From contig CAMWLE010000003.1 of NCBI GenBank assembly GCA_947175015.1, positions 20,888 to 84,887 of the forward strand: 64,000 bases of DNA, in the 5' to 3' direction. Positions 39,229 to 62,049 of this stretch are shown here, one piece after another. The translations under genes were made by a program, and so were the position numbers. Position 1 is the stretch's first letter. The number at the start of each line of letters is the position of its first letter. A model generated the notes under the pieces. The model was not told the DNA's origin, ran no database searches, and saw only the letters and a program-made list of their open reading frames with translations. This DNA is from an uncultured bacterium (GTDB taxonomy: Bacteria > Bacillota > Clostridia > Lachnospirales > Lachnospiraceae).

Positions 39229-39272
39229 TAGAGATAAGGAATTTTGTGCAAATTGATCAGAAAGGAGCAGCA

Positions 39273-41798
39273 ATGGAAAAATATTATACTCAGGAAATTT
39301 CCAAATCTGACAGGATTCCCAGGCTGGTAGCGCATTTATATGCCAAAATGCCGGAGATAGAGTCCGCCAGGGCAAAATTAATTACAGAAAGTTACAGGGC
39401 AACTGAGGACAAGCCCGTCATTATGCGGCGTGCGCTTGCTTTTGAACATATTCTTGACAATATCCCCATTATTATCAGAGAGGAAGAACTGGTTGTGGGC
39501 AGCACCACCATTGCTCCCAGAGGATGCCAGACTTATCCGGAGTTCTCGTTCAAATGGCTGGAAGCGGAATTTGAAACGGTGGCAACTCGTAAGGCAGATC
39601 CTTTTTACATAGCGGAGCAGACCAAAAAAGAGTTGCGGGAGGCAGATGCTTACTGGGAAGGCAAGACCACCAGCGAACTGGCCACAGCATTGATGACAGA
39701 GGAAACGAAAAAAGCCATTGAACACAATATCTTTACACCGGGTAATTATTTTTACAATGGTGTGGGACATGTGACGGTACAATATGATAAGGTGTTGGCT
39801 GTCGGGTACAGAGGCATTATTGCACAGATGCAGGAAGAATTGGCAAAATGTAATCCCGGCGATGCTGATTATTGCACGAAAAGTCAATTCCTAAAAGCTG
39901 CCATCATCAGTTGTGAGGCAGTGATTCGTTATGCCAACAGATATGCTGATTTGGCGGAGAAGGAAGCTGCGGCCTGTTCCGATGGAATCAGAAAGCAGGA
40001 GCTTCTGCAAATAGCATCCAATTGCCGCAGGGTGCCTGAGCATGGGGCAGAATCTTTTTATGAGGCATGTCAGAGCTTCTGGTTTGTACAGCAGCTTTTG
40101 CAGCTGGAATCCAGCGGGCATTCCATTTCTCCCGGACGTTTTGATCAATATATGTATCCTTATTATAAGAAGGATCTGGATGCAGGGAAATGTACCCGTG
40201 AATTTGCGCAGGAGCTGATTGATTGTATCTGGGTCAAATTAAATGACTTGAACAAGTGCCGCGACGCTGCAAGTGCAGAAGGCTTTGCAGGATATAGTCT
40301 GTTCCAGAATCTGATTGTGGGCGGACAGGACAAGTATGGATGTGATGTGACCAATGATTTATCATTTATGTGTATCACAGCTTCCAAGCATGTATTTCTG
40401 CCCCAGCCGTCACTTTCCATACGTGTGTGGAACAAATCGCCCCATGATTTGTTGCTGAAGGCAGCGGATCTGACCAGGACAGGTATCGGACTTCCGGCCT
40501 ATTATAATGACGAGGTAATCATACCTTCCCTGATGAGCCGGGGCCTGACATTGGAGGATGCCAGAGAGTATAATATCATCGGCTGTGTGGAGCCGCAGAA
40601 GGCGGGCAAGACAGAAGGATGGCATGATGCGGCGTTCTATAATATGTGCCGTCCTTTGGAACTGGTATTCTCCAACGGATGGGACAAGGGTGAGAAAATC
40701 AGCATAGAGACCGGCCGGGTGGAGGATATGACCACCTTTGAGGAATTCTATGATGCGTATAAGAAGCAGATGGATTACAATATTTCCCTGTTGGTAAATG
40801 CGGACAATGCCATTGACGTGGCTCATGCCACCCGCTGTCCGCTGCCGTACCTTTCCTGTATGGTGGATGACTGTATCAAGAGAGGGAAAACGGTTCAGGA
40901 GGGCGGTGCCGTTTATAATTTCACAGGGCCGCAGGGCTTCGGCATTGCCAATATGGCAGATTCTCTTTATGCCGTCAAGAAGCTGGTATTTGATGAGAAG
41001 AAAGTAACGCTTGCGGACTATAAGCGTGCGCTGGCTATGAATTATGGACAGGGCTTTGATGCGGTAAGCGCCGGAGAAATTGTTGCGGAGATTCTGCGTG
41101 AGATGGAAAGCAATGGAATATCCGCAGATGAAAATCAGATTGCAGGTATGATCACAGCGGTAATGAATATGGAACTGCCTGCAGAAGATAAGAAAAAGTA
41201 TGAAGATTTGCTGGCTATGATCAATGAAGTTCCCAAATTTGGGAATGATATTGAAGAAGTGGACATGTTTGCCAGAGATGTGGCATATACCTATACCAGG
41301 CCGCTGTTAAACTATTACAATCCCAGGGGGGGACAGTTCCAGGCAGGATTGTATCCGGTATCTGCAAATGTGCCTTTGGGCGCTCAGACCGGAGCCACGC
41401 CGGATGGCAGGCTGGCACATACTCCCGTAGCGGATGGTGTGTCACCTTCGGCAGGCAAGGATGTGTATGGCCCTACGGCGGCAGCGAATTCCGTTTCCAA
41501 GCTGGATCACGGAATCGCTTCCAATGGCACCCTGTTTAACCAGAAATTCCACCCTACGGCTCTGAGCGGAGAGAAGGGATTGGAGAATTTTGTGGCGTTG
41601 ATCAGATCGTATTTTGACCAGAAGGGAAGCCATATGCAGTTTAATGTGGTGGATCGGGAGACATTGCTGGATGCACAGGCACATCCTGAGAAATATGCCC
41701 ATCTGGTAGTGCGGGTGGCCGGTTACAGCGCATTGTTCACCACACTTTCCAAGTCATTGCAGGATGACATTATCCGCAGGACGGAGCAGGGATTCTAG
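39273..41798 (+). CDS. Glycyl radical enzyme, probable B12-independent 1,2-propanediol dehydratase
   Basis: GRE fold sequence with C-terminal glycyl loop VVRVAGYSALFTTLSKSLQDDII; inside a PduP/PduL/BMC locus. Confidence 0.88.
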   Translation: MEKYYTQEISKSDRIPRLVAHLYAKMPEIESARAKLITESYRATEDKPVIMRRALAFEHILDNIPIIIREEELVVGSTTIAPRGCQTYPEFSFKWLEAEFETVATRKADPFYIAEQTKKELREADAYWEGKTTSELATALMTEETKKAIEHNIFTPGNYFYNGVGHVTVQYDKVLAVGYRGIIAQMQEELAKCNPGDADYCTKSQFLKAAIISCEAVIRYANRYADLAEKEAAACSDGIRKQELLQIASNCRRVPEHGAESFYEACQSFWFVQQLLQLESSGHSISPGRFDQYMYPYYKKDLDAGKCTREFAQELIDCIWVKLNDLNKCRDAASAEGFAGYSLFQNLIVGGQDKYGCDVTNDLSFMCITASKHVFLPQPSLSIRVWNKSPHDLLLKAADLTRTGIGLPAYYNDEVIIPSLMSRGLTLEDAREYNIIGCVEPQKAGKTEGWHDAAFYNMCRPLELVFSNGWDKGEKISIETGRVEDMTTFEEFYDAYKKQMDYNISLLVNADNAIDVAHATRCPLPYLSCMVDDCIKRGKTVQEGGAVYNFTGPQGFGIANMADSLYAVKKLVFDEKKVTLADYKRALAMNYGQGFDAVSAGEIVAEILREMESNGISADENQIAGMITAVMNMELPAEDKKKYEDLLAMINEVPKFGNDIEEVDMFARDVAYTYTRPLLNYYNPRGGQFQAGLYPVSANVPLGAQTGATPDGRLAHTPVADGVSPSAGKDVYGPTAAANSVSKLDHGIASNGTLFNQKFHPTALSGEKGLENFVALIRSYFDQKGSHMQFNVVDRETLLDAQAHPEKYAHLVVRVAGYSALFTTLSKSLQDDIIRRTEQGF

Positions 41799-41949: not shown

Positions 41950-42741
41950 ATGGATTATTTACAGACAAAAGGTCGGATATTTGATATACAGCGCTATTCT
42001 ATCCATGACGGAACGGGAATCCGCACAATCTGTTTTCTGAAAGGATGCGTGCTGCGGTGTAAGTGGTGCTGCAACCCGGAATCTCAGGAATATGGGATAC
42101 AGGAAATGATGGTGCAAGGAAAGGTAAAAATCATTGGGCAGGATGTGACAGTGGCGGATGTCATGGAGACCGTGGAGAAAGACAGGCCGTATTACTTACG
42201 TTCCGGCGGAGGGTTGACACTTTCCGGTGGAGAGAGTCTCTGCCAGCCGGAGTTTGCCAGGGATTTGCTTCATGCGGCGAAAGCGGTGGGAATTAATACA
42301 GCCATGGAAAGCATGGCTTGCGCTAAGTGGAATGTGATTGAAGAAATATTGCCGTATCTTGACCATTATCTTATGGATATTAAACATATGGACAGTGATA
42401 AACATAAGAGATTTACAGGGAAGGGGAATGAGCTGATGCTGGAAAACGCGGGGAAAATTGCGGCTTCCGGGCAGACGCGTCTCAGTATTCGTGTACCTGT
42501 GATTCCCACTTTTAATGATACCGCAGCAGAAATCAGGGAAATTGCGCAGTTTGCGGAAAGGCTTCCCGGTGTGGAAGAGATTTATCTGCTTCCTTATCAC
42601 AGACTGGGGCAGGATAAGTATGAGGGATTGGGCAGAACTTACGAATTGCCGGATATCCTGCCGCCTGCTCCGGAACATATGCAGATGTTGAAGAAGACGG
42701 TGGAGACAAGCACAGGTTTAAGATGTCAGATCGGAGGATAA
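41950..42741 (+). CDS. Glycyl radical enzyme activase (radical SAM), short form
   Basis: GRIFDIQRYSIHDGTGIRTICFLKGCVLRCKWCCNPESQ (CxxxCxxC); directly downstream of the GRE. Confidence 0.9.
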   Translation: MDYLQTKGRIFDIQRYSIHDGTGIRTICFLKGCVLRCKWCCNPESQEYGIQEMMVQGKVKIIGQDVTVADVMETVEKDRPYYLRSGGGLTLSGGESLCQPEFARDLLHAAKAVGINTAMESMACAKWNVIEEILPYLDHYLMDIKHMDSDKHKRFTGKGNELMLENAGKIAASGQTRLSIRVPVIPTFNDTAAEIREIAQFAERLPGVEEIYLLPYHRLGQDKYEGLGRTYELPDILPPAPEHMQMLKKTVETSTGLRCQIGG

Positions 42742-42784: not shown

Positions 42785-43552
42785 ATGTTGTTTGGTAAGA
42801 ATGCACACACAGAAAAGGCGGCTTCAGGTCATCTGCACAGGATTTCCATTTTTGACACAGATTACCCAATAGATAAGTCAAACTGGTTTCAGGTATATTC
42901 TGCCTGCCTGGGTAAGGTAATGGTAATTCAGAATGCCTGTGCGGAGCAGGTGGTAAAAAACAGGAATTGGTATGTTGATTTTGGTGCGGGTACATTGTCT
43001 TTTGGAAACGACAGTTATCCGGTACAATTCCTTGGCAGCGAATCTTCTTACAGCAATACATGGATGTGGGGTTGGAATAATATCAACGGATTTGACGAGA
43101 AACTTATCAGGCTGGCAGAGGAAACGAAGAAGACAGGAGAGGCATGGAATCTGGAGCCATTGACGGTGGATACCTTCGACCTTGATGATACCTTTAACGG
43201 GCATAACCTTTCTATTGTGGCATGTGGGATTTCAAAAGAGAATTATTGTTATTACAGGGGCCCCCATGACAATGGCGCAGTGTTTATGGCATTTTCCGGT
43301 GTGACGGAGTCCGTTTTCAGTCCGGTGAACGCAGATGATTTTATTTCCACTGTTTTGGATTGTATACAGAAAGTATCCGTAGAGCACAGGATTTTTACAG
43401 AGAGTTTTCTGATGTGGAACGGCACAAAATACGATTGGGAGGGAAATGATTTAATTGCACATTTCCCTCAGGATGTGGTAATTACTTTTGAACAGGCGGA
43501 GGATTTATGGCGGATTGCTTCGATGAAAACAGTGAAGCAGGCAGAGGGATGA
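42785..43552 (+). CDS. DUF6882-like protein of unknown function
   Basis: WYVDFGAGTLSFGNDSYPVQFLGSESSYSNTWMWGWNNINGFDEKLI. Confidence 0.65.
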   Translation: MLFGKNAHTEKAASGHLHRISIFDTDYPIDKSNWFQVYSACLGKVMVIQNACAEQVVKNRNWYVDFGAGTLSFGNDSYPVQFLGSESSYSNTWMWGWNNINGFDEKLIRLAEETKKTGEAWNLEPLTVDTFDLDDTFNGHNLSIVACGISKENYCYYRGPHDNGAVFMAFSGVTESVFSPVNADDFISTVLDCIQKVSVEHRIFTESFLMWNGTKYDWEGNDLIAHFPQDVVITFEQAEDLWRIASMKTVKQAEG

Positions 43553-43923
43553 CAATGGATTGGCTTGATGACAGGACGAAACAGAGAATTGTGCAGGAGT
43601 TGGTACCAGGCAAACAGATCACGCTGGCGCATATCATTGCCAGTCCGGATTCAATTTTATATGAAAAGCTGGGGCTGAATCCCAGTATAGATTATGCCCG
43701 GGCGGCCATCGGCATCATGACGGTTTCGCCAGCGGAGACTGCTATTATCATGGCGGACGTGGGTATGAAGGCTGCTGCGATTGACCTGGGATTTGTGGAC
43801 AGGTTCAGCGGCTCACTGATCATTTCCGGTACTGTGTCAGAAGTAGAAGCTTCCGAACAGGCAATTTTGGACTATGTGAAAAATGAACTGAAATATGCGG
43901 TCTGCGGAATTACCCGCACTTGA
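43549..43923 (+). CDS. EutS/PduU-type (permuted BMC) shell protein
   Basis: KQRIVQELVPGKQITLAHIIASP...AIGIMTVSPAETAIIMADVGMKAAAIDLGFVDRFSGSLIISG; ATGA overlap with the preceding gene. Confidence 0.85.
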   Translation: MTMDWLDDRTKQRIVQELVPGKQITLAHIIASPDSILYEKLGLNPSIDYARAAIGIMTVSPAETAIIMADVGMKAAAIDLGFVDRFSGSLIISGTVSEVEASEQAILDYVKNELKYAVCGITRT

Positions 43924-44827: not shown

Positions 44828-45307
44828 ATGAGAAAGCTGATATTAATGGGCCGCAGCGAGAGCGGCAAGACTACCTTGAAACAGGCACTTTCAGGGGAAA
44901 AAATAAATTATTACAAAACGCAGTATATTCACTATCAGGATGTATTGATTGATACTCCCAGTGAATATGCCCAGACACATCACTTAGGATATGCGTTGGC
45001 CTTGTATTCCTATGAGGCGGATGTGGTGGGATTGTTGGTGGCAGCGACAGAAAGTTATACTTTATTCCCGCCCAATATTACTTGTATGGTGAATCGGGAT
45101 GTGATTGGGATTGTCACCAAGATAAATGAGCCCAAGGCAAACAGAGCTCTGGCGGAATTGTGGCTTCGCAATGCGGGGTGTAAAGATATCTTTTTTGTGG
45201 ATTCGGTGACGGGGGAAGGTGTGGATGCTATTTTGGAGTATTTGCATCAGCCGAAGAAGAAACGTCAGCTTCGACCTATGGAAGAAGCGAAGGCCAGGGA
45301 AGAATAG
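44828..45307 (+). CDS. EutP/PduV-like GTPase
   Basis: MRKLILMGRSESGKTTLKQALSGEKINYYKTQYIHYQDVLIDTPSEY...GIVTKINEPKANRALAELWLRNAG. Confidence 0.88.
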   Translation: MRKLILMGRSESGKTTLKQALSGEKINYYKTQYIHYQDVLIDTPSEYAQTHHLGYALALYSYEADVVGLLVAATESYTLFPPNITCMVNRDVIGIVTKINEPKANRALAELWLRNAGCKDIFFVDSVTGEGVDAILEYLHQPKKKRQLRPMEEAKAREE

Positions 45308-45793: not shown

Positions 45794-46600
45794 ATGCAAA
45801 ACGAGTATGAAATCAAAAAAGAGATTTGCGACATCGGAAAGAGAATCTACAACAGGAATATGGTTGCTGCAAATGACGGCAATATTTCCGTGAAGATCAG
45901 CGATAACGAATTTCTTTGCACACCTACCGGTGTGTCCAAGGGATTTATGACCCCGGAGTATATCTGTAAGGTGGATGCACAGGGCAATGTAATCCAGGCA
46001 AACGGCAATTTTAAGCCTTCCAGCGAGATTAAGATGCATATGAGAGTGTATCAGGAGAGACCTGATGTAAAGAGTGTTGTGCATGCACATCCTGTATATG
46101 CTACCAGCTTTGCAATCGCAGGGATTCCTTTGACACAGCCCATTATGCCGGAAGCAGTGATCGCTCTTGGCTGTGTGCCTATCGCAAAATACGGCAGACC
46201 TTCCACCATGGAGATTCCGGATGCCGTATCTGAGTATGTACAATACTTTGATGCTGTATTGTTGGAGAATCATGGTGCTTTGACCTATTCTGATTCCTTG
46301 TTGAGTGCATATCTGAAGATGGAATCTGTGGAATTTTATGCACAGCTTTTGTATCAGTCAAGACTCTTGGGCGGCCCTAAGGAATTCACGCCTCAGCAGG
46401 TGGAAGATCTCTACGAGATCAGGAGACAGTTTGGCATGAAGGGACGTCATCCTGCAAATCTTTGTCCGAATGCAAAGGAAGGCAAGCCCAGCTGTCATAC
46501 CTGTGGCGGCGGATGCTCCAGCAAGAAAGAAAACGTGCAGGCTTCACCTGAACTGGTAGCAGAGATTACCAAGAAGATTCTTGAGCAATTAGGAAAATGA
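45794..46600 (+). CDS. fucA: Class II aldolase (L-fuculose-1-phosphate aldolase-like) with C-terminal encapsulation-peptide-like helix
   Basis: NRNMVAANDGNISVKISDNEFLCTPTGVSKGFM...VHAHPVYATSFAIAG; C-term SPELVAEITKKILEQLGK. Confidence 0.88.
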   Translation: MQNEYEIKKEICDIGKRIYNRNMVAANDGNISVKISDNEFLCTPTGVSKGFMTPEYICKVDAQGNVIQANGNFKPSSEIKMHMRVYQERPDVKSVVHAHPVYATSFAIAGIPLTQPIMPEAVIALGCVPIAKYGRPSTMEIPDAVSEYVQYFDAVLLENHGALTYSDSLLSAYLKMESVEFYAQLLYQSRLLGGPKEFTPQQVEDLYEIRRQFGMKGRHPANLCPNAKEGKPSCHTCGGGCSSKKENVQASPELVAEITKKILEQLGK

Positions 46601-47301
46601 TGGATAAAAGAGAACTGGAAAACATTGTACGCGAAGTTTTGAGTAGAACAATGGATGAAACCAGGGCCGCCGGGACTTTATTTCCGGAACAGGAATGCAA
46701 AGAGACTATGTTGCATACGCCAGACTTTAGTCAGGTGCAGGCATCGGGTGTTTCTGTATCAAACAATGGCAGAGTAGTCCAGAATGGTGAGGTTTTGTCA
46801 ACAACGCATAGGGGGACAAAGAAAGCCATGGGTACTCTGACCAACGCAAATGGTGGTCTGGTACAGGTATCCATGCCCCTTGCTCTGGCGGTAAAGTTGA
46901 TTGAACAGATTGAGGCAAAAGCGGCGGAGTGGAATATGAGAGTTGTCACCGCTGTGTCAGATGCCTCCGGCAGGCCGGTGGCGGTTCATTGTATGGATGG
47001 TGCCTACATGGGAAGTTTTGATGTGGCATTGAATAAGACTTATACATCTATTGCGTTTCAGATGTCTACCGCAGAGCTTGGAAAATTAAGCCAGCCGGGA
47101 ATGAGCCTTTATGGAATACAGTTCACAAATGAGGGCAGAATTGTCATTTTTGGCGGAGGCGAAGTATTGACGCAGAATGGTGTCATCATAGGCGCGTTGG
47201 GTGTCAGTGGAGGAAGTGCACAGCAGGACACGGAACTGGCGGCTTATGGGAAGAAGATGTTTGAGTCAGAATTAGAACAGGAGGTAATCAAGTGCTTGTA
47301 A
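46597..47301 (+). CDS. GlcG/HbpS-like (PduO C-terminal-like) protein with N-terminal encapsulation-peptide-like helix
   Basis: MDKRELENIVREVLSRTMDE N-term; SMPLALAVKLIEQIEAKAAEWNMRVVTAVSDASGRPVAVHCMDGAYMGSFDVALNKTYTSIAF. Confidence 0.85.
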   Translation: MMDKRELENIVREVLSRTMDETRAAGTLFPEQECKETMLHTPDFSQVQASGVSVSNNGRVVQNGEVLSTTHRGTKKAMGTLTNANGGLVQVSMPLALAVKLIEQIEAKAAEWNMRVVTAVSDASGRPVAVHCMDGAYMGSFDVALNKTYTSIAFQMSTAELGKLSQPGMSLYGIQFTNEGRIVIFGGGEVLTQNGVIIGALGVSGGSAQQDTELAAYGKKMFESELEQEVIKCL

Positions 47302-48680
47302 ATGAGAGCCTGGTACAGGATATTGTACAGGAAGTGGTTGCAAAATTGCAGATTGCGGAGCCAGCCGGGAAAATGCATGGTGTATTTACCGATATGAATG
47401 ATGCGATTGCAGCGGCAAAAGCATCACAGGCGATTATTCGTAGAATGTCTCTTGACCAGAGGGAACAGATTATCAGTAATATCCGCAGAAAAACACATGA
47501 AAATGCGGAAGTAATAGCCAGAATGGGCGTAAATGAAACAGGAATGGGCAATGTGGGGCATAAGATTTTAAAACATCATCTTGTAGCCGACAAGACGCCG
47601 GGGACGGAAGACTTAAAGACAACAGCATGGTCCGGAGACAGAGGGTTGACGTTGATTGAGATGGGGCCTTTCGGTGTGATTGGCGCGATTACACCTTGCA
47701 CAAATCCCAGTGAGACAGTTATCTGTAATTCGATTGGAATGATTGCGGCAGGGAATACGGTAGTATTTAATCCCCATCCGCAGGCCATTAAGACTTCTAT
47801 TTTTGCATTGAATATGATCAATGAAGCGTCTCTGGAGGCAGGCGGCCCGGATAATGTGGCTTGTACCGTGGAAAATCCTACCTTAGAGAGCAGTAATATT
47901 ATGATGAAGCATAAGGATATTCCCTTGATTGCGGCTACCGGCGGCCCAGGCGTTGTTACGGCGGTGCTTTCTTCAGGAAAGAGAGGCATTGGTGCAGGCG
48001 CCGGTAATCCGCCGGCAGTGGTGGATGAGACAGCTGATATCAGGAAAGCGGCAGAAGATATTGTAAATGGTTGTACCTTTGACAATAATCTCCCTTGTAT
48101 TGCGGAGAAAGAAATTGTGGCGGTGGACTCCATTGCGGATGAGCTGATGCACTATATGATTTCCGAGCAGGGCTGTTATTTGGCTTCCAAGGAAGAACAG
48201 GACAAGTTGGTAGCGACGGTTCTGACACCAAAGGGATTGAATCGTAAATGTGTGGGCCGTGATGCCAAGACATTGCTGGGAATGATCGGCGTGACAGTAC
48301 CTGATAATATCCGCTGTATTGTATTTGAAGGTGAGAAAGAACATCCTTTGATCGCAGAAGAACTGATGATGCCTATCCTTGGGTTGGTTCGTGCCAAGGA
48401 TATTGATGATGCCATTGAGAAGGCTGTATGGCTGGAGCATGGCAATCGTCATTCCGCACATATTCATTCTAAGAACATAGATAATATCACAAAGTATGCA
48501 AGGGAAATTGATACGGCAATTCTGGTGAAGAATGCACCGTCCTATGCGGCGTTGGGCTTCGGAGGAGAAGGGTATTGTACCTTTACCATTGCCAGCCGTA
48601 CCGGAGAGGGATTGACCAGTGCAAAATCATTTACCAAGAGCAGAAGATGTGTTATGGCGGATAGCCTTTGCATACGGTAA
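47292..48680 (+). CDS. pduP: CoA-acylating propionaldehyde dehydrogenase
   Basis: N-term EP VNESLVQDIVQEVVAKLQIAE; aldehyde dehydrogenase with GPFGVIGAITPCTNPSETVICNSIGMIAAGN...NNLPCIAEKEI. Confidence 0.93.
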   Translation: MLVNESLVQDIVQEVVAKLQIAEPAGKMHGVFTDMNDAIAAAKASQAIIRRMSLDQREQIISNIRRKTHENAEVIARMGVNETGMGNVGHKILKHHLVADKTPGTEDLKTTAWSGDRGLTLIEMGPFGVIGAITPCTNPSETVICNSIGMIAAGNTVVFNPHPQAIKTSIFALNMINEASLEAGGPDNVACTVENPTLESSNIMMKHKDIPLIAATGGPGVVTAVLSSGKRGIGAGAGNPPAVVDETADIRKAAEDIVNGCTFDNNLPCIAEKEIVAVDSIADELMHYMISEQGCYLASKEEQDKLVATVLTPKGLNRKCVGRDAKTLLGMIGVTVPDNIRCIVFEGEKEHPLIAEELMMPILGLVRAKDIDDAIEKAVWLEHGNRHSAHIHSKNIDNITKYAREIDTAILVKNAPSYAALGFGGEGYCTFTIASRTGEGLTSAKSFTKSRRCVMADSLCIR

Positions 48681-48879: not shown

Positions 48880-50088
48880 ATGGCTGATACAGCACAGATT
48901 GAGGAGATAGTAAAGCAAGTGTTGGCGAGTATGTCCGGCGGTACAGCGGCAGCTCCGGCAGGGAACAGTGCAGCAGGTAATACCATCCCCAAGACAGCTC
49001 ATGTAGCAATGCTTACAAGTCTGGAACATTTTGATGTAAAAGAGTTCCCCATGCCGGAAGTGGGTGATGACGATATTCTGGTAAAGGTAGAGGGATGCGG
49101 TGTCTGCGGTACGGATGCCCATGAGTTCAAGAGAGATCCCTTTGGTCTGATTCCCGTTGCGCTTGGACATGAGGGCACCGGCGAGATTGTGAAGATGGGA
49201 AAAAATGTCAAAAAGGACAGTGCCGGTAAGGATCTGAAGCTGGGAGATAAAGTGGTTACCTGTATGATATTCAAGGATAACCCGGATATTACCATGTTTG
49301 ATTTGAATAAGCAGAATGTAGGAGGCGCCGATGTATACGGACTTCTTCCGGATGATGACATTCATCTCAATGGATGGTTCTCCGATTACATATTGATTCG
49401 GGGCGGTTCCACGGTATTTAACGTAAGTGATCTTGATCTGTATTCCAGAGTGTTGATTGAGCCCTGTGCAGTGCTGATACATGCTGTGGAAAGAGCTAAG
49501 AGCACAGGAATTCTTCGGTTTAACAGCAGAGTTGTGGTGCAGGGATGCGGTCCTATCGGTTTGATCTGTATTGCAATCCTGCGCACTATGGGAATTAATA
49601 AGATTGTGGCAGTGGATGGAGAGCAGAAGCGTCTTGATTTTGCAAAAGAGCTGGGGGCTTCTGATGGTGTGAATTTTAAGGATCACAAGGGCATTGAAGC
49701 ATTGACCGCAGCGGTTGAAGAAAAGTGTGAAGGACATTTGGCAGATTTCGCATTCCAGTGTACCGGTTCACCGGCAGGACATTCCAATATTTATAAGTTC
49801 ATCCGCAACGGCGGTGGACTTTGCGAACTGGGATTCTTTATCAATGGCGGTGATGCAACGATTAATCCGCACTTTGATATTTGTTCTAAGGAAATTACCA
49901 CTGTAGGTTCCTGGGTATATACGCTGAGAGACTATGCGACCACCTTTGATTTCCTTAAGAGTGCAAAGAAGATTGGTCTGCCCATGGATAAGCTGATTAC
50001 ACATACTTATTCTTTAGAGGAAATCAATGAGGCGTTGAAGACAAATCTGGCTATGACAGGACTTAAGATTGCGATCATCAACAAGTAA
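48880..50088 (+). CDS. Zinc-type (MDR) alcohol dehydrogenase with N-terminal encapsulation-peptide-like helix
   Basis: MADTAQIEEIVKQVLASMSGG; GCGVCGTDAHEFKRDPFGLIPVALGHEGTGEIVKMG; VVQGCGPIGLICIAILRTMG. Confidence 0.88.
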   Translation: MADTAQIEEIVKQVLASMSGGTAAAPAGNSAAGNTIPKTAHVAMLTSLEHFDVKEFPMPEVGDDDILVKVEGCGVCGTDAHEFKRDPFGLIPVALGHEGTGEIVKMGKNVKKDSAGKDLKLGDKVVTCMIFKDNPDITMFDLNKQNVGGADVYGLLPDDDIHLNGWFSDYILIRGGSTVFNVSDLDLYSRVLIEPCAVLIHAVERAKSTGILRFNSRVVVQGCGPIGLICIAILRTMGINKIVAVDGEQKRLDFAKELGASDGVNFKDHKGIEALTAAVEEKCEGHLADFAFQCTGSPAGHSNIYKFIRNGGGLCELGFFINGGDATINPHFDICSKEITTVGSWVYTLRDYATTFDFLKSAKKIGLPMDKLITHTYSLEEINEALKTNLAMTGLKIAIINK

Positions 50089-50125: not shown

Positions 50126-50449
50126 ATGGAAGCTAGGGAAGAAGCAGTAGGACTGTTGGAGGTATACGGGCTGACCTGCGCATTCCTTGCAGCCGACGCA
50201 GGCTGTAAGGCAGCCGATGTCAGGCTGGAGACCTTTGACAAAAATAAACCCGCGAATGCAGATGCGCTGCCGGTACCTTTGTTGGTGACAGTTAAATTCC
50301 GCGGGAGTGTGGCCGCAGTGGAGGCTGCCATGGAGGCTGGTGAGGAAATGGCAAAATCCCTTACCGGTGTGGTACAAAGGCATATTATTGCAAGACCTAC
50401 CGGGGACACGGAAAAAATGTTGAAGTTGAATGCTTTTGATAAAAATTGA
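50126..50449 (+). CDS. BMC-domain shell protein (BMC-H)
   Basis: EAVGLLEVYGLTCAFLAADAGCKAADVRLETFDKN...VTVKFRGSVAAVEAAMEAGEEMA. Confidence 0.88.
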   Translation: MEAREEAVGLLEVYGLTCAFLAADAGCKAADVRLETFDKNKPANADALPVPLLVTVKFRGSVAAVEAAMEAGEEMAKSLTGVVQRHIIARPTGDTEKMLKLNAFDKN

Positions 50450-50477
50450 TCAGATGGTGATGTGAAAGGAGAATATT

Positions 50478-50753
50478 ATGGCACAGGAAGCATTGGGAAT
50501 GGTAGAAACAAGAGGATTGACAGCAGCCATTGAAGCGGCTGATGCAATGACTAAGTCCGCAGAGGTAACTCTGGTAGGAACGGAAAAAATCGGTTCCGGA
50601 CTGGTAACTGTGATGGTACGCGGTGATGTAGGGGCTGTGAAAGCTTCTGTGGAGAGTGGTTCTGCTGCAGCAAGCAGATTAGGTGAACTGGTAGCTGCAC
50701 ATGTGATTCCGAGACCTCATACCGATGTGGAGAAGATTTTACCTAAGATTTGA
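50478..50753 (+). CDS. BMC-H shell protein (PduA/J-like)
   Basis: [61 protein letters not shown]. Confidence 0.95.
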
Positions 50754-50807
50754 GAACAGGAAAGGTTACTGTTTCACGGTAACTGACATAAGTAAAGGAG
50801 CCGATCA

Positions 50808-51146
50808 ATGGGCAATACATCATTAGGCTTTATCGAAATTTCAGGTGTGGTGGCAGCGGTGGATGCACTGGATATCATGTGCAAAACATCCGGTGTGGAA
50901 CTGGCTACCTGGGAAAGAAAACTGGGCGGACGGCTTGTTACCATTGTAATCAAAGGTGATGTGGCTTCTGTCACGGAGGCTGTGGCGACGGCGGCAGAAA
51001 AGGCCATCAAAAAGCCGGTGGCAAAAGGTGTCATTGCAAATCCCCATAGTGAGATTATGAAACTGGTGGAGTTAAGTGCCAGCAGGTTTATGAGCAAAGC
51101 AGCGGAGGAGAGTACGCTTGATGCCCAGACGATTCAGGAAGTGTAA
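50808..51146 (+). CDS. BMC-domain shell protein with C-terminal extension
   Basis: TSLGFIEISGVVAAVDALDIMCKTSGVELATWERKLGGRLVTIVIKGDVASVTEAV. Confidence 0.9.
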   Translation: MGNTSLGFIEISGVVAAVDALDIMCKTSGVELATWERKLGGRLVTIVIKGDVASVTEAVATAAEKAIKKPVAKGVIANPHSEIMKLVELSASRFMSKAAEESTLDAQTIQEV

Positions 51147-51191
51147 CAGATAAACAACAAATTGCCGTACAAGGCAAAAAACTGTATAACA

Positions 51192-51297
51192 GCATCCGGT
51201 CGGATGCGGAACTAAAAACAGTCTCGGAACGGAAGGCCCCGGGAGAATTTTCAGAAGCTTCCTTTGCTGCTGAAAATTGCTCCCTGTACATGGGGCC
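51192..51297 (+). other. Intercistronic hairpins upstream of the second PduA-like gene
   Basis: GCATCCG-gt-CGGATGC (51192-51207) and long three-helix hairpin GGCCCC/GGAG/AATTTTCAG ... CTGAAAATT/CTCC/GGGGCC (51235-51297). Confidence 0.85.
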
Positions 51298-51336
51298 AGG
51301 AGAGTAGAGACGGAACTAATATTAGGAGGAAAAGAA

Positions 51337-51618
51337 ATGGCACAGGAAGCATTGGGAATGGTGGAAACAAGAGGTTTGGTGGCGGCAATCGAGGCAGCAG
51401 ATGCTATGTGCAAAGCAGCAAATGTTGCGCTGGTTGGCACAGAGAAGATTGGTTCCGGATTGGTAACTGTTATGGTACGTGGTGATGTGGGCGCAGTGAA
51501 GTCTTCCGTAGAGGCCGGCGCATCCAGCGCATCCAAGCTGGGTGAACTGGTGGCTACCCATGTAATCCCTCGTCCTCATACAGACGTTGAGATGATTCTT
51601 CCCAAGGTAAAAGAGTGA
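51337..51618 (+). CDS. BMC-H shell protein (PduA/J-like paralogue)
   Basis: [61 protein letters not shown]. Confidence 0.95.
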
Positions 51619-51742: not shown

Positions 51743-52387
51743 ATGGAACAGCAGACAGTTGAATTAATTACACAGATGGTACTTCAGACCATCAACAGGA
51801 TGGAAGAAAAGAGCAATGGCTATCAGGTACCGGTTGGAGTATCTGCCAGGCATATCCATTTGACACAGGAGCATGTGGAAGCATTGTTCGGAGAAGGCTA
51901 TCAGCTTACAAAGAAAAAAGATCTCATGGGTGGGCAGTATGCCTGCAACGAAACTGTTACCATAGTAGGGCTGAAGCTGCGTGCTATTGAAAATGTGCGA
52001 GTTCTCGGACCGGTCAGAAAGGCTTCACAAGTGGAAATATCCGCAACAGATGCTATGAAGCTGGGAATTGCGGCGCCTGTCAGGGAATCCGGTAATATTG
52101 CCGGAAGTGCACCCATAGCGGTAGTAGGACCGAAGGGTGTTCTCTATCTGAAGGAAGGCTGTATTATTGCAATGCGTCATATACATATGTCACCTGCAGA
52201 TGCTATGGCGGCAGGTGTGAAAGACGGCGATATCGTATCCGTGAAAGCGGATAATGAGAGAGGCACCATTTTCAATCAGGTGAAGATTCGTGTCAATGAC
52301 AGTTTTACACTGGAAATGCACATTGATACGGATGAAGCAAATGCCAGCAAGATCAAAACTGGTGATAAGGTGACAATTATCAAATAG
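51743..52387 (+). CDS. pduL: Phosphate propanoyltransferase with N-terminal EP
   Basis: VELITQMVLQTINRMEEKSNGYQVPVGVSARHIHLTQEHVEALFGEGYQLTKKKDLMGGQYACNETV...GCIIAMRHIHMSPADA. Confidence 0.95.
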   Translation: MEQQTVELITQMVLQTINRMEEKSNGYQVPVGVSARHIHLTQEHVEALFGEGYQLTKKKDLMGGQYACNETVTIVGLKLRAIENVRVLGPVRKASQVEISATDAMKLGIAAPVRESGNIAGSAPIAVVGPKGVLYLKEGCIIAMRHIHMSPADAMAAGVKDGDIVSVKADNERGTIFNQVKIRVNDSFTLEMHIDTDEANASKIKTGDKVTIIK

Positions 52388-52541
52388 TTTGGAGAGAGCA
52401 GGAGAGTTGTAATATTGTGATGGGTATCATGTCGCTCTTGGTGGTTGAATTCTAATGTAAAACAAATACATATCATCAGAATGGATGCCGCTGAGAGTGG
52501 CAGGTCTGTCACTGCTGTTCTACCTGATAGGAGAAGGTGCC

Positions 52542-52787
52542 ATGATTGTAGGGAAGGTAATAGGAAGTATTGTTTCTACACGTAAGTGTGAAAATTTGAT
52601 TGGAAATAAGTTCATGATTATTGAACCGTTAGAAGAGATGGCGGGCAATGCTGCACAATTTGTTGCAATAGACAATATTGGGGCAGGTATCGGCGAAACG
52701 GTGCTGGTGGCAACGGGAAGCGCGGCGCGAGTGGGCATGGAAGGAGCGCCTGTGGATGCTGCGATTGTCGGGATTGTTGATGAGTGA
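52542..52787 (+). CDS. EutN/CcmL-type pentameric vertex protein (BMC-P)
   Basis: MIVGKVIGSIVSTRKCENLIGNKFMIIEPL...IDNIGAGIGETVLVATGSAARV. Confidence 0.93.
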   Translation: MIVGKVIGSIVSTRKCENLIGNKFMIIEPLEEMAGNAAQFVAIDNIGAGIGETVLVATGSAARVGMEGAPVDAAIVGIVDE

Positions 52788-52878
52788 TTTAAGTTCATTG
52801 GATACAGGAGAATGAGTGGAATTCAATTAGAAAGAACATTTCATATAAGAAAGGTATTTCATGAAAAAGGAGTGTTTC

Positions 52879-54222
52879 ATGGAGATTCAGACTTTAAAGC
52901 AGATTTTGCAGGAAAATGGAATTGTTGGTGCTGGCGGCGCAGGATTTCCCACTTATGCCAAGCTGGATGAGCGGGCAGAAATTATTTTGATGAATTGTGC
53001 GGAATGTGAACCATTGCTGAAACTTCACAGACAGCTATTGGAACAGCATGCGGATGAGATTTTGAAGGCCTTTGATATGATTGCCGGGGCAGTAGGGGCA
53101 AAAGAGGCTGTTATCGGAATTAAAAGAGAATATAAAGCGACATTAAAAGCTATAGATAGATATATTGATTCCTATCCTCATATGCGAGTGCAGTTATTGG
53201 ACAGTGCATATCCTATGGGGGATGAGGTGGTGCTTATCTATGAAGCAACAGGAAGAGTGATTCGTCCGGGAGGACTTCCCATTGAGGAAGGCGTGGCGGT
53301 GTTCAATGTGGAGACAGTCTACAATGTATACCGCGCCATGGAACAGAATACACCTGTGGTAGATAAGTTGGTGTCCGTGGTAGGTGAGGTAGAGCATCCT
53401 GTTACGGTGCGGGTACCGATTGGCGCGGCAATCAAAGATGTCATTGCCTATGCAGGAGAGGTTACGGTGAAACATCCGGTTTATCTGATTGGCGGTCCTA
53501 TGATGGGGAATTTGGCGGATGAAACGGCACTGGTAACGAAAACGACCAATGCGGTGATTGTATTGGACCGTTCCCATACTTTGGTGCAGCGTAAGAACAG
53601 GAATACCGCCATTGACCTGAAACGTGCGGCCTCTTCCTGTTGTCAGTGCGAGACATGTACAAATCTCTGTCCAAGACATGCGTTGGGGCATCCTATTGAA
53701 CCTCATAAGTTTATGCGCAGTGCTGCAAATAAAGATTTTCAGGACACAAATGTATTTTTGAATACATTATTTTGCAGTTCCTGCGGATTGTGTGAGAATT
53801 TTTCCTGTCCCCAGGGGCTTGCACCCAGAAGTTTGATTGCGGAGTATAAATTGGGATTGCGCAAAGCAGGAGTAAAACCGCCGGCAGATGTAGTGCCTGC
53901 CCCGGTAAAAGAGAGTAGAGCATACCGCAAGGTGCCGGAAGAAAGACTGGAAGCAAGGCTTGGGCTGGCGAAATATGATGTGGATGCGCCTTTACAGTCT
54001 GATGATTATTGGATGGAAGAGCACTTCATTCATAAAGTCAGGATATTGCTTAGTCAGCATATTGGTGCGCCTGCGGTGGCATCTGTGGGAAAAGGTGATT
54101 CGGTCAGAGTGGGTGATTGCATAGCAAAGCCTGGAAACGGATTGAGTGTAGGAATCCATGCTTCCCTGGAAGGTATTGTACAGGAAGTGACCGATAAATA
54201 TATTACGATTGCAGAAAGGTAG
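52879..54222 (+). CDS. pduS: PduS-like (RnfC-related) Fe-S flavoprotein
   Basis: LQENGIVGAGGAGFPTYAKLDERAEIILMNCAECEPLLKLHRQLL; CCQCETCTNLCPRHALG and CSSCGLCENFSCPQGLAP. Confidence 0.93.
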   Translation: MEIQTLKQILQENGIVGAGGAGFPTYAKLDERAEIILMNCAECEPLLKLHRQLLEQHADEILKAFDMIAGAVGAKEAVIGIKREYKATLKAIDRYIDSYPHMRVQLLDSAYPMGDEVVLIYEATGRVIRPGGLPIEEGVAVFNVETVYNVYRAMEQNTPVVDKLVSVVGEVEHPVTVRVPIGAAIKDVIAYAGEVTVKHPVYLIGGPMMGNLADETALVTKTTNAVIVLDRSHTLVQRKNRNTAIDLKRAASSCCQCETCTNLCPRHALGHPIEPHKFMRSAANKDFQDTNVFLNTLFCSSCGLCENFSCPQGLAPRSLIAEYKLGLRKAGVKPPADVVPAPVKESRAYRKVPEERLEARLGLAKYDVDAPLQSDDYWMEEHFIHKVRILLSQHIGAPAVASVGKGDSVRVGDCIAKPGNGLSVGIHASLEGIVQEVTDKYITIAER

Positions 54223-54230: not shown

Positions 54231-54779
54231 ATGAGCAAGGCGTTGGGAATGATAGAGTTTAAGACGGTGTCTGCCGGAGTGACTGCGGCGGATGCCATGG
54301 TCAAGACGGCTGCCGTAGAGTTGATTGAAGCACAGACTGTATGCCCCGGCAAGTACATAGCTCTGATTACAGGGGATTTGAGCGCTGTAGATGCGGCAGT
54401 TGACACGGCGAAAGTACAGTATGGAGAGCAGCTGATCGATAGTTTTGTACTGGGCAATCCCCATGAGGGCATTTTTCCTGCAATCTATGGAACCACTCAT
54501 GTGGAGCATATCAGCTCTTTGGGGATTTTGGAAACTTTTGATGCGGCGGCAATTATTGTTGCGGCAGATGTGGCGGCGAAGACCGCGGATGTGGAGCTGA
54601 TCGAACTTCGGATTGCAAAGGGAATGTGCGGTAAGTCTTATGTGTTCCTGTGCGGAGAGGTGTCTGCTGTGGAAGCGGCCATTGCCAGGGCGAAAGCAAG
54701 TGTATCCGAGGGCGGTATGTACCTGGATTCCACCGTGATTGCCCATCCTGACCCACAAATCTGCAAGTCGATTTTATAG
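54231..54779 (+). CDS. pduT: PduT-like tandem-BMC (BMC-T) shell protein
   Basis: Two BMC domains; CPGKY motif matching the PduT Fe-S cysteine region. Confidence 0.88.
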   Translation: MSKALGMIEFKTVSAGVTAADAMVKTAAVELIEAQTVCPGKYIALITGDLSAVDAAVDTAKVQYGEQLIDSFVLGNPHEGIFPAIYGTTHVEHISSLGILETFDAAAIIVAADVAAKTADVELIELRIAKGMCGKSYVFLCGEVSAVEAAIARAKASVSEGGMYLDSTVIAHPDPQICKSIL

Positions 54780-55141
54780 TCTGTACAGAAATAATTCTAA
54801 TTTGAATGTGAGAGGATGATGGAATCCTCTTATATGGCTGGGCAGACAATAGATGGGTATGGGTGTGTCTGTGTCCTTTGAGGGGCGAAGTGAGAGCTCC
54901 GCACAGGAGGAGACAGATATTAGACGTGTACAGGTATATTTGTTGTTCTTAGACAGGTGATTTTGGTTCAGGATTAAGGCGTTGGTTCATAGTACAAAAG
55001 TGAGCATGCAGAGATTTTGGATGTGCTTTAGTGATTTTTGTTTTATTGTTTATTGATTGTAGGTATTATGATACAGCGTGCTGAAAACATAAGTATTGAT
55101 TGGTTGATGACATAAGAGAAGAGGCGAGGAGTGGGCGGCAG

Positions 55142-55936
55142 ATGCTTGCTGTAGAGCGGAGAAATCTGATTTTGGAAAAACTGCAGGATGAGAAAAAAGT
55201 GGTAGTCAGCGAGCTGAGTATCCTTTTTGACGTTTCAGAAGAGACAATTCGACGGGATTTAGATAAACTGGACAAGGAAGGTCTCGCAACGAAGAGTTAT
55301 GGCGGCGCGGTATTGAACGAGAATACCAGTCTTGATATGCCCTTCAATGTCCGCAAGAAACGGAATATGCGAGGCAAGCAGGCGATCGCGGAGTTGGTAA
55401 GTGAGCTTATCGGAGAAGGGGAACATATTATTGTAGACCCCAGTACTACGGCAGTGGCAATTGTAAAGGCTCTGAAAAGCAGAAAGCGTTTGACAGTGAT
55501 TACCAATTCCATTGAAGTGCTGGTGGAGTTGTCAGATGTCAGCGGTTGGGATGTCATCTGTACAGGAGGCACTCTGCGGGAAAATTATCTGGCGCTGGTG
55601 GGCCCAAAAGCAACGGATCTCATCAATTCTTTTCATGCGGACAAGGTCATTTTGTCCTGTAAAGGAATTGCCAGGGAAAACGGGATCACAGATTCCAATG
55701 AAATGTTCTCTCAGGTAAAGCAAACTATGCTGAAATCTGCAAAACAGCGTATTTTGGCAGTGGATTATACGAAATTTGACAATGTGGCATTTTCACAGAT
55801 ATGTGAACTTTCGGCCATTGATATGGTGGTGACTGATGTGCGTCCTTCCGGTGAGTGGATGGATTACTTTGCAGAGAAAGGGATAGAGTGCCTCTATGGC
55901 AAAGAAGATGACGAAGACCATAGCCTTTGCGAATAA
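55142..55936 (+). CDS. DeoR-family transcriptional regulator
   Basis: AVERRNLILEKLQDEKKVVVSELSILFDVSEETIRRDLDKLDKEGLATKSYGGAVL; ATG at 55142 preferred. Confidence 0.92.
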   Translation: MLAVERRNLILEKLQDEKKVVVSELSILFDVSEETIRRDLDKLDKEGLATKSYGGAVLNENTSLDMPFNVRKKRNMRGKQAIAELVSELIGEGEHIIVDPSTTAVAIVKALKSRKRLTVITNSIEVLVELSDVSGWDVICTGGTLRENYLALVGPKATDLINSFHADKVILSCKGIARENGITDSNEMFSQVKQTMLKSAKQRILAVDYTKFDNVAFSQICELSAIDMVVTDVRPSGEWMDYFAEKGIECLYGKEDDEDHSLCE

Positions 55937-56699
55937 TAAGGGCGGGAGTGGTAAGACGACGAGCTGTGCCAATGTGGGATATTCATTATCTACACTTGGA
56001 AAAAAAGTACTTATGATCGACGGTGATATGCAGCTAAATTTGTCCCTCTCTTTTTTTTCGGAGGAGACGATATTGGAATTTGCAGCAGGGGATAAAAATC
56101 TATATCATGCTGTGAAAAAAGAAGAAGATTTGTTGGATTATGTGGTGCATACACCTTATGAAAATCTGGATCTGATTCCTTCTTCAACACTTATGAGCAG
56201 TATTGAGTATGAGCTTTTTGCCAAATGGCAGAGAGAATTGATATTGTCAAAGAGCCTTGAGAAAATTAAGGAGAGCGGGGAGTATGATTATATTTTGATC
56301 GATGCACCGCCTACTTTGGGAGGCTGGGTTATGAATATCCTATGTGCCTCTGATTATGTGCTTATTCCGGTGGAAGCGAGTCCATGGGGACTGTTTGGTG
56401 TAGCAAATATGTTTGAGTTTCTGGATAGTGTGAAAAGGCTGGCACCAAAGTTAGTTCTTTTGGGTGTAGTGATAACCAAATTGGATGCCAGGAAAAATTA
56501 TGGAAAACAGACTTTGGATGTTCTGCATGAGTATCAGGAAGTGACTGTGTTTGATACAGTGATTCGAGTTGACAGTGAGATTGAATGGGCGCAGGATAAT
56601 TCCAAACCTGTTATGGTACACAAGAAGAGCGCCAGAAGTGCAGGTGAATATCTGGAGTTGGCAAAGGAGGTAGAGGAACATGTCCGTAGGAGCAGGTAG
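55896..56699 (+). CDS. ParA/MinD-type partition ATPase (candidate McdA-like)
   Basis: TIAFANNKGGSGKTTSCANVGYSLSTLGKKVLMIDGDMQLNLSLSFF (deviant Walker A); YDYILIDAPPTLGGWVMNILCASDYVLIPVEASPWG. Confidence 0.92.
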   Translation: MAKKMTKTIAFANNKGGSGKTTSCANVGYSLSTLGKKVLMIDGDMQLNLSLSFFSEETILEFAAGDKNLYHAVKKEEDLLDYVVHTPYENLDLIPSSTLMSSIEYELFAKWQRELILSKSLEKIKESGEYDYILIDAPPTLGGWVMNILCASDYVLIPVEASPWGLFGVANMFEFLDSVKRLAPKLVLLGVVITKLDARKNYGKQTLDVLHEYQEVTVFDTVIRVDSEIEWAQDNSKPVMVHKKSARSAGEYLELAKEVEEHVRRSR

Positions 56700-57303
56700 T
56701 ATCAAAAGAGCGGCAAATGCCGTAAATACAGCAAATTCCATGAATGCAGTTGGTGCCCCCAATACCACAGGTACAGAAATAAAAGGAACGGAAAGTGTGG
56801 AAGAGACTACAACAAGGGCGGAATCAATCATACAAAAGGCGGAGAGCAGGCTTGCGGCCAGAAAAGCAGCAGAAGGGAAGCCTGTGAGTCAGAAGGGACC
56901 GGTTCCGTCTGCAGGTAGGACCCAGGCAACAGGTAAATCCGCAGCAGAAAAGTCCCGGATAACGGGAAAGGCACAGCCGGAGCTAGAGTCAGGCACAGTA
57001 GGGGCAGCACAGTCGGAGCTAAAGTCAGGCACAGCAGGGGCAGCACAGTCGGAGTTAAAGTCAGACACAGTAGTGGCAGTACAGCCGGAGCTAAAGTCAG
57101 ACACAGCAGTGGCAGTTCAGTCAGAGGCAAAGTTGGCTGCATCAGGGAAGTCAGAAGATGCACAAACATTGTCAAAGGCTGAGAATGTTGAAATCGAAAT
57201 GACAATGGAAGCGATGGGAGAAATGGAGACTGCTGCAGAGAGTGGAACCCATACATACATCATATATGGAATAGGACAGGAACTCCCCATATATCTTTTA
57301 TAG
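56680..57303 (+). CDS. Low-complexity repeat protein, candidate ParA partner (McdB-like)
   Basis: Overlaps the parA-like gene by 20 bp; basic N-term MSVGAGSIKRAANAV; four 12-aa repeats; C-term HTYIIYGIGQELPIYLL. Confidence 0.6.
   Translation: MSVGAGSIKRAANAVNTANSMNAVGAPNTTGTEIKGTESVEETTTRAESIIQKAESRLAARKAAEGKPVSQKGPVPSAGRTQATGKSAAEKSRITGKAQPELESGTVGAAQSELKSGTAGAAQSELKSDTVVAVQPELKSDTAVAVQSEAKLAASGKSEDAQTLSKAENVEIEMTMEAMGEMETAAESGTHTYIIYGIGQELPIYLL
56971..57132 (+). repeat. 36-nt in-frame tandem repeat, ~4.5 copies
   Basis: AQPELESGTVGA/AQSELKSGTAGA/AQSELKSDTVVA/VQPELKSDTAVA/VQSEAK. Confidence 0.95.
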
Positions 57304-61000: not shown

Positions 61001-62049
61001 AATTGGAGGATAGGCTGGTACCGGATATGGGATTTGATGAACAGATGGAGCGTACTTTTGATTATGGCAGTCGAAAATTTACAGTTCGTTTGAATCCGGC
61101 ATTGGAAATGGAGGTCTATGACGGAAATGGAAAACGCTTGAAAAGTCTGCCGTCTCCTGGGAAACAGGACGATTCTGACAAAGCGGAACAGGCGGCCGAA
61201 GCGTTTAAGCAGATGAAAAAGCAGCTAAAGGTTGTGGTACAAACGCAGAAACTGAGGCTGGAACAGGCGCTTAGTATGGCAAGATTCTGGAAGATACAGG
61301 ACTGGAGGGAATTATTTGTTAAAAACCCTATCATGCATCAATTTGCTATGGGGCTTATATGGGGTGTATATGAGAATGGTATTTTGAAAGAAACTTTTCG
61401 ATATATGGAAGATGGAAGTTTTAATACGGCAGAAGAAGAGGAATATTTCTTGCCAGAATATGTGGAATTTGAGCCATTGGGCCAGAAATCCGCAGGCCAA
61501 AAAATAGCAGGCCCAATCTCCGAAAGTCTGTACAGAATTGGCTTAGTACATCCGCTGGAGTTGTCAAAAGAGGATCTTTTGGCATGGCAGAATCAGCTAG
61601 CAGACTATGAGGTGATACAGCCGTTTCACCAGATCAACCGTCCGGTTTATGTAACAGAGGAGGAGGAAGAAGAGCGGTTTGAACTTGAACGATTTCATGG
61701 CAAAATGCTGAACGGGCTGTCGCTTTCAGGAAAACTGCTGGGTATGGGGTGGTATCGCGGCGAGATTATGGATGGAGGATTTTTTGATAGTTATTATCAC
61801 AACGATGGTAACATAGGCGCAAAGCTTACATTTTCTGGTAGTTCGATGGGGGATGAGAATGAAGAAGTAACGGTGTATAACATATATTTATATAAATTAT
61901 CAGATACAGAACCGAAGCTTTTGCCGCCCTATCTATTTTCGGAAGAACACAAGTGTAAAATGAAGGATGTGAATCCAAGATATTTCAGTGAAATCATTCT
62001 GCAGATTGCGAAAGCAACACAGAATACACTACATCAAAATGGCATGTAA
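58075..62049 (+). CDS. DUF4132-domain giant protein with two in-frame repeat inserts
   Basis: C-terminal MARFWKIQDWRELFVKNPIMHQFAMGLIWGVYENG...YEVIQPFHQINRPVY...GMGWYRGEIMDGGFFDSYYH (DUF4132); upstream helical-repeat region. Confidence 0.8.
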   Translation: MIGRDKIDEEIRQALLDAMQLSKTNLQIAEEYLDMDFQEEPELLKKVESQDFKFAHFGGRVSYLEWLQKKKRKEELGRYVRFIVEVGGSTAWRMLVGPYIGQATGTDLNRLLLLHTGEHASEQKIAVLAGAFVAFLSTSSCDAKLLCQSEKENPEIFLRAMDYCHECDGYGAAGKRSNAKLLLAAMYLHHMPVGTALETVEYLRESLIAAIEDIMAFEPQELERIQNFARTAEKDTPFPQQILSIFSERKGSENPVVLAGCAFLAIRHSVCFEIILRILVAVDYRYQGRDKVLNVCKDITEEAWFQDRMEEIEEMLPIQDDRYVRWSLKAGCEATVARMAVKRPEIIQAVATMIESEGYEKLIGIIQNSNYVLYEEMKTTYKESLRNKIVSELLVRCYTGRVEAKKYLAGECSVETLELYVEEWGNDVYPEKERYRKIEHLKEIGEISVYRRVLVLEILKKETGYFEVYRVYTGQNGSGQAIEEICADNTGNNALLYHRNQMKGMLQILEEEGVPIWMQTNALGGFCENIGDKKKKTMLLEQCVDIFAESLQKRQSAGKLERGQAAGELEKRQAAEKLEGRQSAGNLQGQYFAEKLQGQQNAEQWEVGMEEAVRRGNAAARVFCFMVFKRLGAGQYRDVYLSCAEDSTKQVRKLLLEICKEHKEWEAEILVLLQSKKLKVREFAVLVLEEWGEVSCLEKVKSALEREKNKKLAKLLRELVEELEAERSEKQEAKITEGQEAKRTEEQEAERTEGQKHERAEGQEAKGTEGQEAESAEGKKEKETEEGTHERSSLKRAEERLAVRIYRGARKRKVEWVQGLALPEVHRQDGELVSQEYMLAMLAAYADMDEAGINQDAVKLAAPLNPKEISMYMQSLYEEWKQLGAEAKKRWVLYPVAIHGGAIMVSVLYAQIKEWAEHSRGVIAAEAVRALAFNGSSEALVLVDQMSRKFKFRQIKNAAGEAISDAASALGIEREELEDRLVPDMGFDEQMERTFDYGSRKFTVRLNPALEMEVYDGNGKRLKSLPSPGKQDDSDKAEQAAEAFKQMKKQLKVVVQTQKLRLEQALSMARFWKIQDWRELFVKNPIMHQFAMGLIWGVYENGILKETFRYMEDGSFNTAEEEEYFLPEYVEFEPLGQKSAGQKIAGPISESLYRIGLVHPLELSKEDLLAWQNQLADYEVIQPFHQINRPVYVTEEEEEERFELERFHGKMLNGLSLSGKLLGMGWYRGEIMDGGFFDSYYHNDGNIGAKLTFSGSSMGDENEEVTVYNIYLYKLSDTEPKLLPPYLFSEEHKCKMKDVNPRYFSEIILQIAKATQNTLHQNGM
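59725..59886 (+). repeat. 27-nt in-frame tandem repeat, ~6 copies
   Basis: LQKRQSAGK/LERGQAAGE/LEKRQAAEK/LEGRQSAGN/LQGQYFAEK/LQGQQNAEQ. Confidence 0.85.
60265..60408 (+). repeat. 24-nt in-frame tandem repeat, 6 copies
   Basis: QEAKITEG/QEAKRTEE/QEAERTEG/QKHERAEG/QEAKGTEG/QEAESAEG. Confidence 0.92.

Follow-up and report, generated by a model that had tools for sequence, protein, structure and literature searches.

The window, as we call the whole stretch of 64,000 nucleotides analysed here, holds a complete microcompartment (BMC) operon, which begins with a glycyl radical enzyme gene (39246) and ends with a BMC-T shell gene (54779). Behind the BMC-T gene follow, in this order, deoR, parA, an ORF for a 207-aa partner protein, and yqeY (57371). 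The deoR and parA genes overlap by 41 bp, close to the 40 bp or so of the preliminary description, and the 20-bp overlap of parA with the partner ORF is exactly as given there. No convincing terminator was found between deoR, parA, and the partner gene (three terminator-like matches against 2.2 expected). The genome assembly is 66% complete, and the closest relative of the window is the Lachnospiraceae MAG L033, with 92% identity in ParA. On the 3′ side of yqeY lies a gene for a 1324-aa protein (58075-62049) with an internal Glu/Gln-rich repeat of EGQEAK type. The main features are collected in Table 1.

Table 1. Features of the microcompartment operon and the adjoining ParA pair in the window
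Feature	Coordinates	Strand	Basis or remark
Glycyl radical enzyme, 1,2-propanediol dehydratase type	39246..41798	+	TIGR01774 above cut-off
Glycyl radical enzyme activase	41950..42741	+	TIGR02494 above cut-off
EutS-like BMC shell protein	43507..43923	+	NF012012, below its cut-off
EutP/PduV-like GTPase	44828..45307	+	PF10662 E=8.7e-47
Class II aldolase, fuculose/rhamnulose-1-P aldolase type, GRM5 marker	45794..46600	+	PF00596
BMC aldehyde dehydrogenase, PduP/EutE type	47292..48680	+	NF011927 above cut-off
Zn alcohol dehydrogenase, lactaldehyde reductase type, GRM5 marker	48880..50088	+	PF00107, PF08240
Four BMC-H-type shell genes (starts 50126, 50478, 50808, 51277)	50126..51618	+	
PduL phosphotransacylase	51743..52387	+	NF011652 above cut-off
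EutN/CcmL-like pentamer (vertex) shell protein	52485..52787	+	by sequence
PduS-like flavin/Fe-S protein	52861..54222	+	PF01512, PF13534, SLBB, RnfC_N
BMC-T shell protein, two BMC domains	54231..54779	+	PF00936, two stretches
DeoR-family regulator	55100..55936	+	PF00455, PF08220; overlaps parA, directly upstream
ParA-family ATPase, 267 aa, KGGSGKTT	55896..56699	+	PF13614 E=1.5e-53
Adaptor/partner, 207 aa: N-terminal helix, low-complexity linker, conserved C-terminal tail	56680..57303	+	
N-terminal motif MSVGAGSIKRAA, proposed ParA-contacting helix	56680..56715	+	
Tandem repeat in linker, 36 bp x 4.5 (= 4.5 x 12 aa)	56971..57133	+	87% matches
C-terminal motif IIYGIGQELPIYLL, proposed cargo-binding peptide	57259..57300	+	

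The locus was at first taken for the GRM3 type. This assignment is ruled out: GRM3 is recognised by having neither fuculose-P aldolase nor lactaldehyde reductase genes, and the window has both. In the scheme of PMC6325248 the fuculose-P aldolase is a marker of GRM5, the fucose/rhamnose-to-propanediol type, and the operon is GRM5 because the class II aldolase, the Zn alcohol dehydrogenase of lactaldehyde reductase type, and PduS are all present. Among the BMC-H-type genes the first and the fourth matched PF00936, and the two middle ones were assigned by their conserved position and by the BMC profile in relatives. The profile built from the EutN/CcmL-like protein of the window finds one copy per complete relative operon. 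The operon also encloses genes for a DUF6882 protein (42785-43552), a VOC/glyoxalase-like protein (43967-44326), and a NUDIX-like protein (44323-44826), the latter two named by sequence only; all three are absent at L055 and L083, where the activase, EutS, and EutP genes are tightly packed.

The ParA protein has the deviant Walker A motif, which in an alignment of 25 relatives reads KGGSGK followed by T or S. The signature Lys15, the Walker Lys20, and Asp44 are invariant in this alignment, and so are Arg199 and Lys200. We take Asp44 to be the catalytic Asp of Soj, and Arg199/Lys200 are presumably the basic residues for non-specific DNA binding. The conservation of Lys15, Lys20, and Asp44 suggests that ParA is a working ATPase. 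The nearest solved chains are ParA/Soj proteins (E from 1e-22 down to 7e-29, the best chains at 1e-26 to 1e-29), and solved McdA (6noo/6non) gives E=2e-14 in a comparison without alpha-McdA sequences.

The partner protein begins with GSIKRAANAV in its N-terminal part, ends with TYIIYGIGQELPIYLL, and carries the twelve-residue repeats between, all as the preliminary description had it. Profile searches place it in no protein family above cut-off, the comparison with solved structures gave no match, and domain searches detected neither ParB_N nor a helix-turn-helix DNA-binding domain in the window's copy. Pfam matches of partners in the family to HC2 histone-like proteins, YtkA, and mucin were rejected as composition-driven and weak or below cut-off. 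The structure model (mean pLDDT 55, pTM 0.19) has helices at residues 5-20 and 44-64 with the rest at low confidence; it points to an N-terminal helix followed mostly by disorder.

GTDB contigs supplied 51 loci with relatives, and others came from a set of 298 family genomes, about one per genus; some species may occur in both sources. ParA is at least 50% identical in 82 loci, and 81 of these have enough downstream sequence to judge. The partner gene lies directly behind parA in 74 of these 81, usually with an overlap of 10-26 nt. Its two ends were compared independently. When candidates were picked by the C-terminal motif alone, the N-terminal motif was present in 74/74, and the reverse test gave the same result; this rules out a chance ORF. 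The N-terminal consensus of the 74 partners is M-x-V-G-x-G-S-I-K-R-A-A-K, with G4, S7, and R10 each found in 99% of the partners picked by their C-terminus only. The C-terminal consensus, LPx[Y/H]LL, stands at the extreme end and is in most partners directly preceded by an acidic residue. In the 74 partners picked by their N-terminus only, Pro at -5 reaches 100%, Tyr or His at -3 reaches 99%, and Leu at -2 reaches 97%; the residue at -3 is Tyr in 77%, His in 22%, and Phe in 1%.

The linker between these ends, about 22% Ala, 19% Lys, and 12% Glu with rare Leu, Ile, Met, and Phe, varies among relatives in sequence and length, and whole partners range from 69 to 232 aa. The repeat core which the preliminary description put at the centre of the protein is real in the window, but it is peculiar to this copy and is not the conserved part in relatives, which rules it out as a functional unit.

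In the tree of 91 ParA proteins a long branch (92/92) separates all 83 clade members from the rest. The seven ParA without a partner (L088, L090, L095, L098, L099, L103, L108) form a single clade (100/92, and 98/91 in a second tree), and L129, a relative from outside the family, also keeps ParA with no recognisable partner. Thus the expectation that relatives keep the partner together with ParA holds for most loci but fails for these. A search for displaced partners in the seven genomes and one control found the C-terminal DNA pattern at about the control level, with no partner at the 30 of 55 pattern sites inspected. In this clade ParA may use another adaptor or may have lost its role. Some of these ParA genes lie within rhamnose operons (ParA-AraC-RhaB-RhaA).

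How closely does this family follow microcompartments? With the ParA clade called present at E<=1e-79 and identity of at least 52%, it was detected in 34 of the 298 genomes, and all 34 carry BMC genes, as against 92 of 298 overall (hypergeometric p=2.8e-20). GRM5 genes are present in 33 of the 34, and the pair of the remaining genome lies beside an EUT operon. An orthologue of the window-type dehydratase occurs in 32 of the 34 and in 55 of the 298. The two exceptions for the dehydratase are G080, the genome with the copy beside the EUT operon, and G203. The latter has GRM5 shell genes, the alcohol dehydrogenase, and PduL; its assembly is 89% complete, and the dehydratase may simply be missing from it. 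BMC genes are absent from the five genomes whose only matches were of Soj type, at about 34-40% identity and each with ParB as the next gene. ParA occurs together with GRM5 shell genes also in two genomes of another family of the same class, so that BMC genes accompany the sampled clade in 36/36 genomes. The association is not reciprocal: 23 of the 55 genomes with the GRM5-type enzyme are without the ParA clade, and ParA is thus not essential for the organelle. A complete genome of the same genus, G022, has neither BMC genes nor this ParA, so that the presence of the entire module varies among members of the genus.

At the level of single loci the picture is more varied. At least four GRM5 genes lie within 10 kb in 42 of the 82 loci, and several of the remaining loci are truncated contigs. 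In 11 loci with no shell genes nearby, a PduQ-like Fe-alcohol dehydrogenase gene stands downstream of the pair. An AraC regulator and/or rhamnose genes adjoin ParA in six loci; rhaB/rhaA are beside it in L080, L088, L103, and L108, and the last has rhaM as well. No gene of the pathway lies within 10 kb of about 15 copies, L067-L072 among them. At L143 and L144, which are GRM5 loci without this ParA, the slot directly behind deoR is filled by a PduQ-like Fe-alcohol dehydrogenase, and nine ParA-less GRM5 loci contain no nearby ORF with the C-terminal motif. The ParA tree requires 17 changes of context, compared with 39 in shuffles, and on this ground the ParA unit has moved repeatedly, often within one pathway. 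The pair is therefore not one that resides mostly away from microcompartments: every genome of the clade among the 298 bears BMC genes, and many of the unlinked copies stand beside genes of the same pathway.

The copy beside the EUT operon (L111, in G080) is divergent from it; EutB was identified there above cut-off and EutA/EutL by sequence. Its partner ends with WDMPDYLL, and a change of cargo is possible in this genome.

What could such a pair do for the microcompartment? To our knowledge, placement and inheritance of metabolosomes are largely obscure, and carboxysomes are the only case with a proven ATPase-driven system. The preliminary description proposed a dedicated McdAB-like pair for a glycyl-radical propanediol microcompartment, and we consider it probable that the pair is a dedicated, McdAB-like module that serves to position and partition microcompartments of the GRM5 fucose/rhamnose-propanediol type. 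The conserved pair with its motifs and ATPase residues and its strict link to BMC genomes are observed here; nucleoid binding, direct contacts, and motion would complete the mechanism as follows. ParA-ATP dimers would bind the nucleoid non-specifically, and the LPx[Y/H]LL peptide of the adaptor would dock to the microcompartment, either to its shell or to an exposed core. The basic N-terminal helix would touch ParA, boost ATP hydrolysis, and detach it from DNA. A gradient of ParA would result, which could move and space the organelles and distribute them to both daughter cells in the way that McdAB handles carboxysomes.

This positioning reading is supported by the presence of BMC genes in all 34 genomes of the clade and their absence from the Soj-type-only genomes, and by the unlinked copies beside the Fe-alcohol dehydrogenase or rhaM/rhaB/rhaA. 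The near-invariant partner ends flanking a variable A/K/E linker, a model of helix plus disorder that resembles McdB of H. neapolitanus, and the invariance of Lys15, Lys20, and Asp44 point the same way. Against it count the partner-less ParA of the clade of seven and of L129, the 23 of 55 GRM5-enzyme genomes without ParA, His at -3 in 22% of partners, and the copies that stand apart from any pathway gene, as at L067-L072. The EutP/PduV-like GTPase of the same operon is a second candidate positioning factor, which also counts against the role of the pair.

Other explanations have to be weighed against a positioning role. The partner could be an assembly or condensation factor, a scaffold between core and shell, with ParA controlling assembly or disassembly rather than position. 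The disorder, repetition, and multivalency of the linker, together with the conserved ends, would suit such a factor, and McdB proteins form condensates (PMC8262871, PMC11321042). However, the absence of the pair from many genomes with GRM5 genes means that it is dispensable for assembly, and a basic N-terminal helix with the gene order parA-partner is typical of ParA cargo adaptors. We regard this explanation as unlikely.

That the pair places or organises a soluble pathway enzyme, such as the PduQ-like Fe-alcohol dehydrogenase, instead of the organelle is very unlikely. The 11 loci mentioned above with this gene just 3′ of the pair would agree with it, but most linked loci end the shell operon with no Fe-alcohol dehydrogenase nearby, and one copy adjoins the EUT operon. 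It is highly improbable that the pair is regulatory and acts together with DeoR or AraC regulators encoded nearby: the DeoR association, so tight in the window, is lost at many loci while the association with the pathway is kept, and no domain for DNA binding or regulation is recognised in the partner, although most members of the partner-less clade do have AraC behind ParA. A partition system of a plasmid, phage, or integrated element that landed beside the operon by chance is scarcely credible, even though the nearest ParA outside the clade have ParB next and three partners contain ParB_N, since the best plasmid or phage record has 41% identity and none reaches 60%, no parS-like 16-mer occurs in the window at up to three mismatches, in agreement with the preliminary description, no DNA-binding domain was detected among the partners scanned, and the link to BMC genomes is strict over 30 genera.

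The same observations on ParB bear on the ancestry of the pair. The three partners in question (L091, L100, and L130) carry ParB_N between both motifs (E=1e-13, 6e-10, and 6e-9, respectively), with no DNA-binding domain found in them. L130 branches off deepest in the ParA clade, the base of the tree being moderately supported (89/83 and 87/87), and a P-x-x-W stretch is common to L091, L100, and the ParB beside the outside relatives. These sequence features fit an adaptor that descended from ParB and lost DNA binding; three separate gains of the domain could also explain them. We propose tentatively, as a possible history, that a chromosome or plasmid ParA-ParB pair was converted to an organelle-positioning pair. 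In this conversion ParB would have lost its DNA-binding part and kept the ParA-contacting N-terminus, with ParB_N retained in a few lineages, and a short tag for binding the microcompartment would have been added at its C-terminus. Decay of ParB_N would then have left the repeat linker, and the tag could be re-aimed, perhaps as in the copy beside the EUT operon. If true, this would be a way in which a system for partitioning DNA evolved into one for organelles.

Three known systems can be compared with the pair. It resembles clostridial ParA-ParB of Soj-Spo0J type in its closest ParA outside the clade and in the ParB_N domain kept by the three partners. It differs in that most partners are without ParB_N and had no DNA-binding domain found, and in the new C-terminal tag and the association with microcompartments. 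The PduV/EutP GTPase has been suggested to position the metabolosome; it is likewise an NTPase of the same operon, but a Ras-like GTPase without a ParA-type partner.

The closest likeness is to McdAB, both alpha and beta: a ParA-family ATPase whose gene is followed by that of a disordered, repetitive adaptor, the link to a BMC operon, a basic N-terminal helix, and, close to the C-terminus, an aromatic residue flanked by acidic ones. The partner shares with McdB its predicted disorder (pLDDT 55), variable length, repetitive and biased composition, and low hydrophobicity. The charged N-terminus of McdB binds McdA, for which the first 20 residues are enough in H. neapolitanus (PMC12204374), and the partner has a conserved basic N-terminus predicted to be helical. 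However, the adaptor matches no described family and ends with LPx[Y/H]LL where McdB has an invariant C-terminal Trp, ParA is nearer to Soj than to solved McdA, and the cargo would be a GRM5 metabolosome. Because of the affinity of ParA and the missing Trp, the pair is by sequence not McdAB, though its way of working is probably similar.

Several papers describe putative McdAB-like pairs in the vicinity of GRM, PDU, and EUT operons (PMC8262871, PMC13052382, PMC11321042; MacCready and Vecchiarelli 2021; Basalla et al. 2024), so this kind of system is already predicted in print. PMC11321042 reports Tyr/Phe within the last five residues of McdB-like proteins of non-carboxysome (GRM/PDU) microcompartments and near-normal function of S. 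elongatus McdB after a W-to-Y replacement, and some members of our family may be among the published examples. The idea, which the preliminary description put forward as a new or little-described instance, is therefore not entirely new. New in comparison with the published pairs are the strict co-occurrence, the two-motif anatomy, and the ParB_N domain inside three partners, and beyond them the family is delimited here, its end motifs are quantified, and many unlinked copies are explained. The two short motifs are testable as peptides, and natural genomes with and without the pair exist. The family thereby offers a well-defined pair strictly linked in genomes to a common gut metabolosome.
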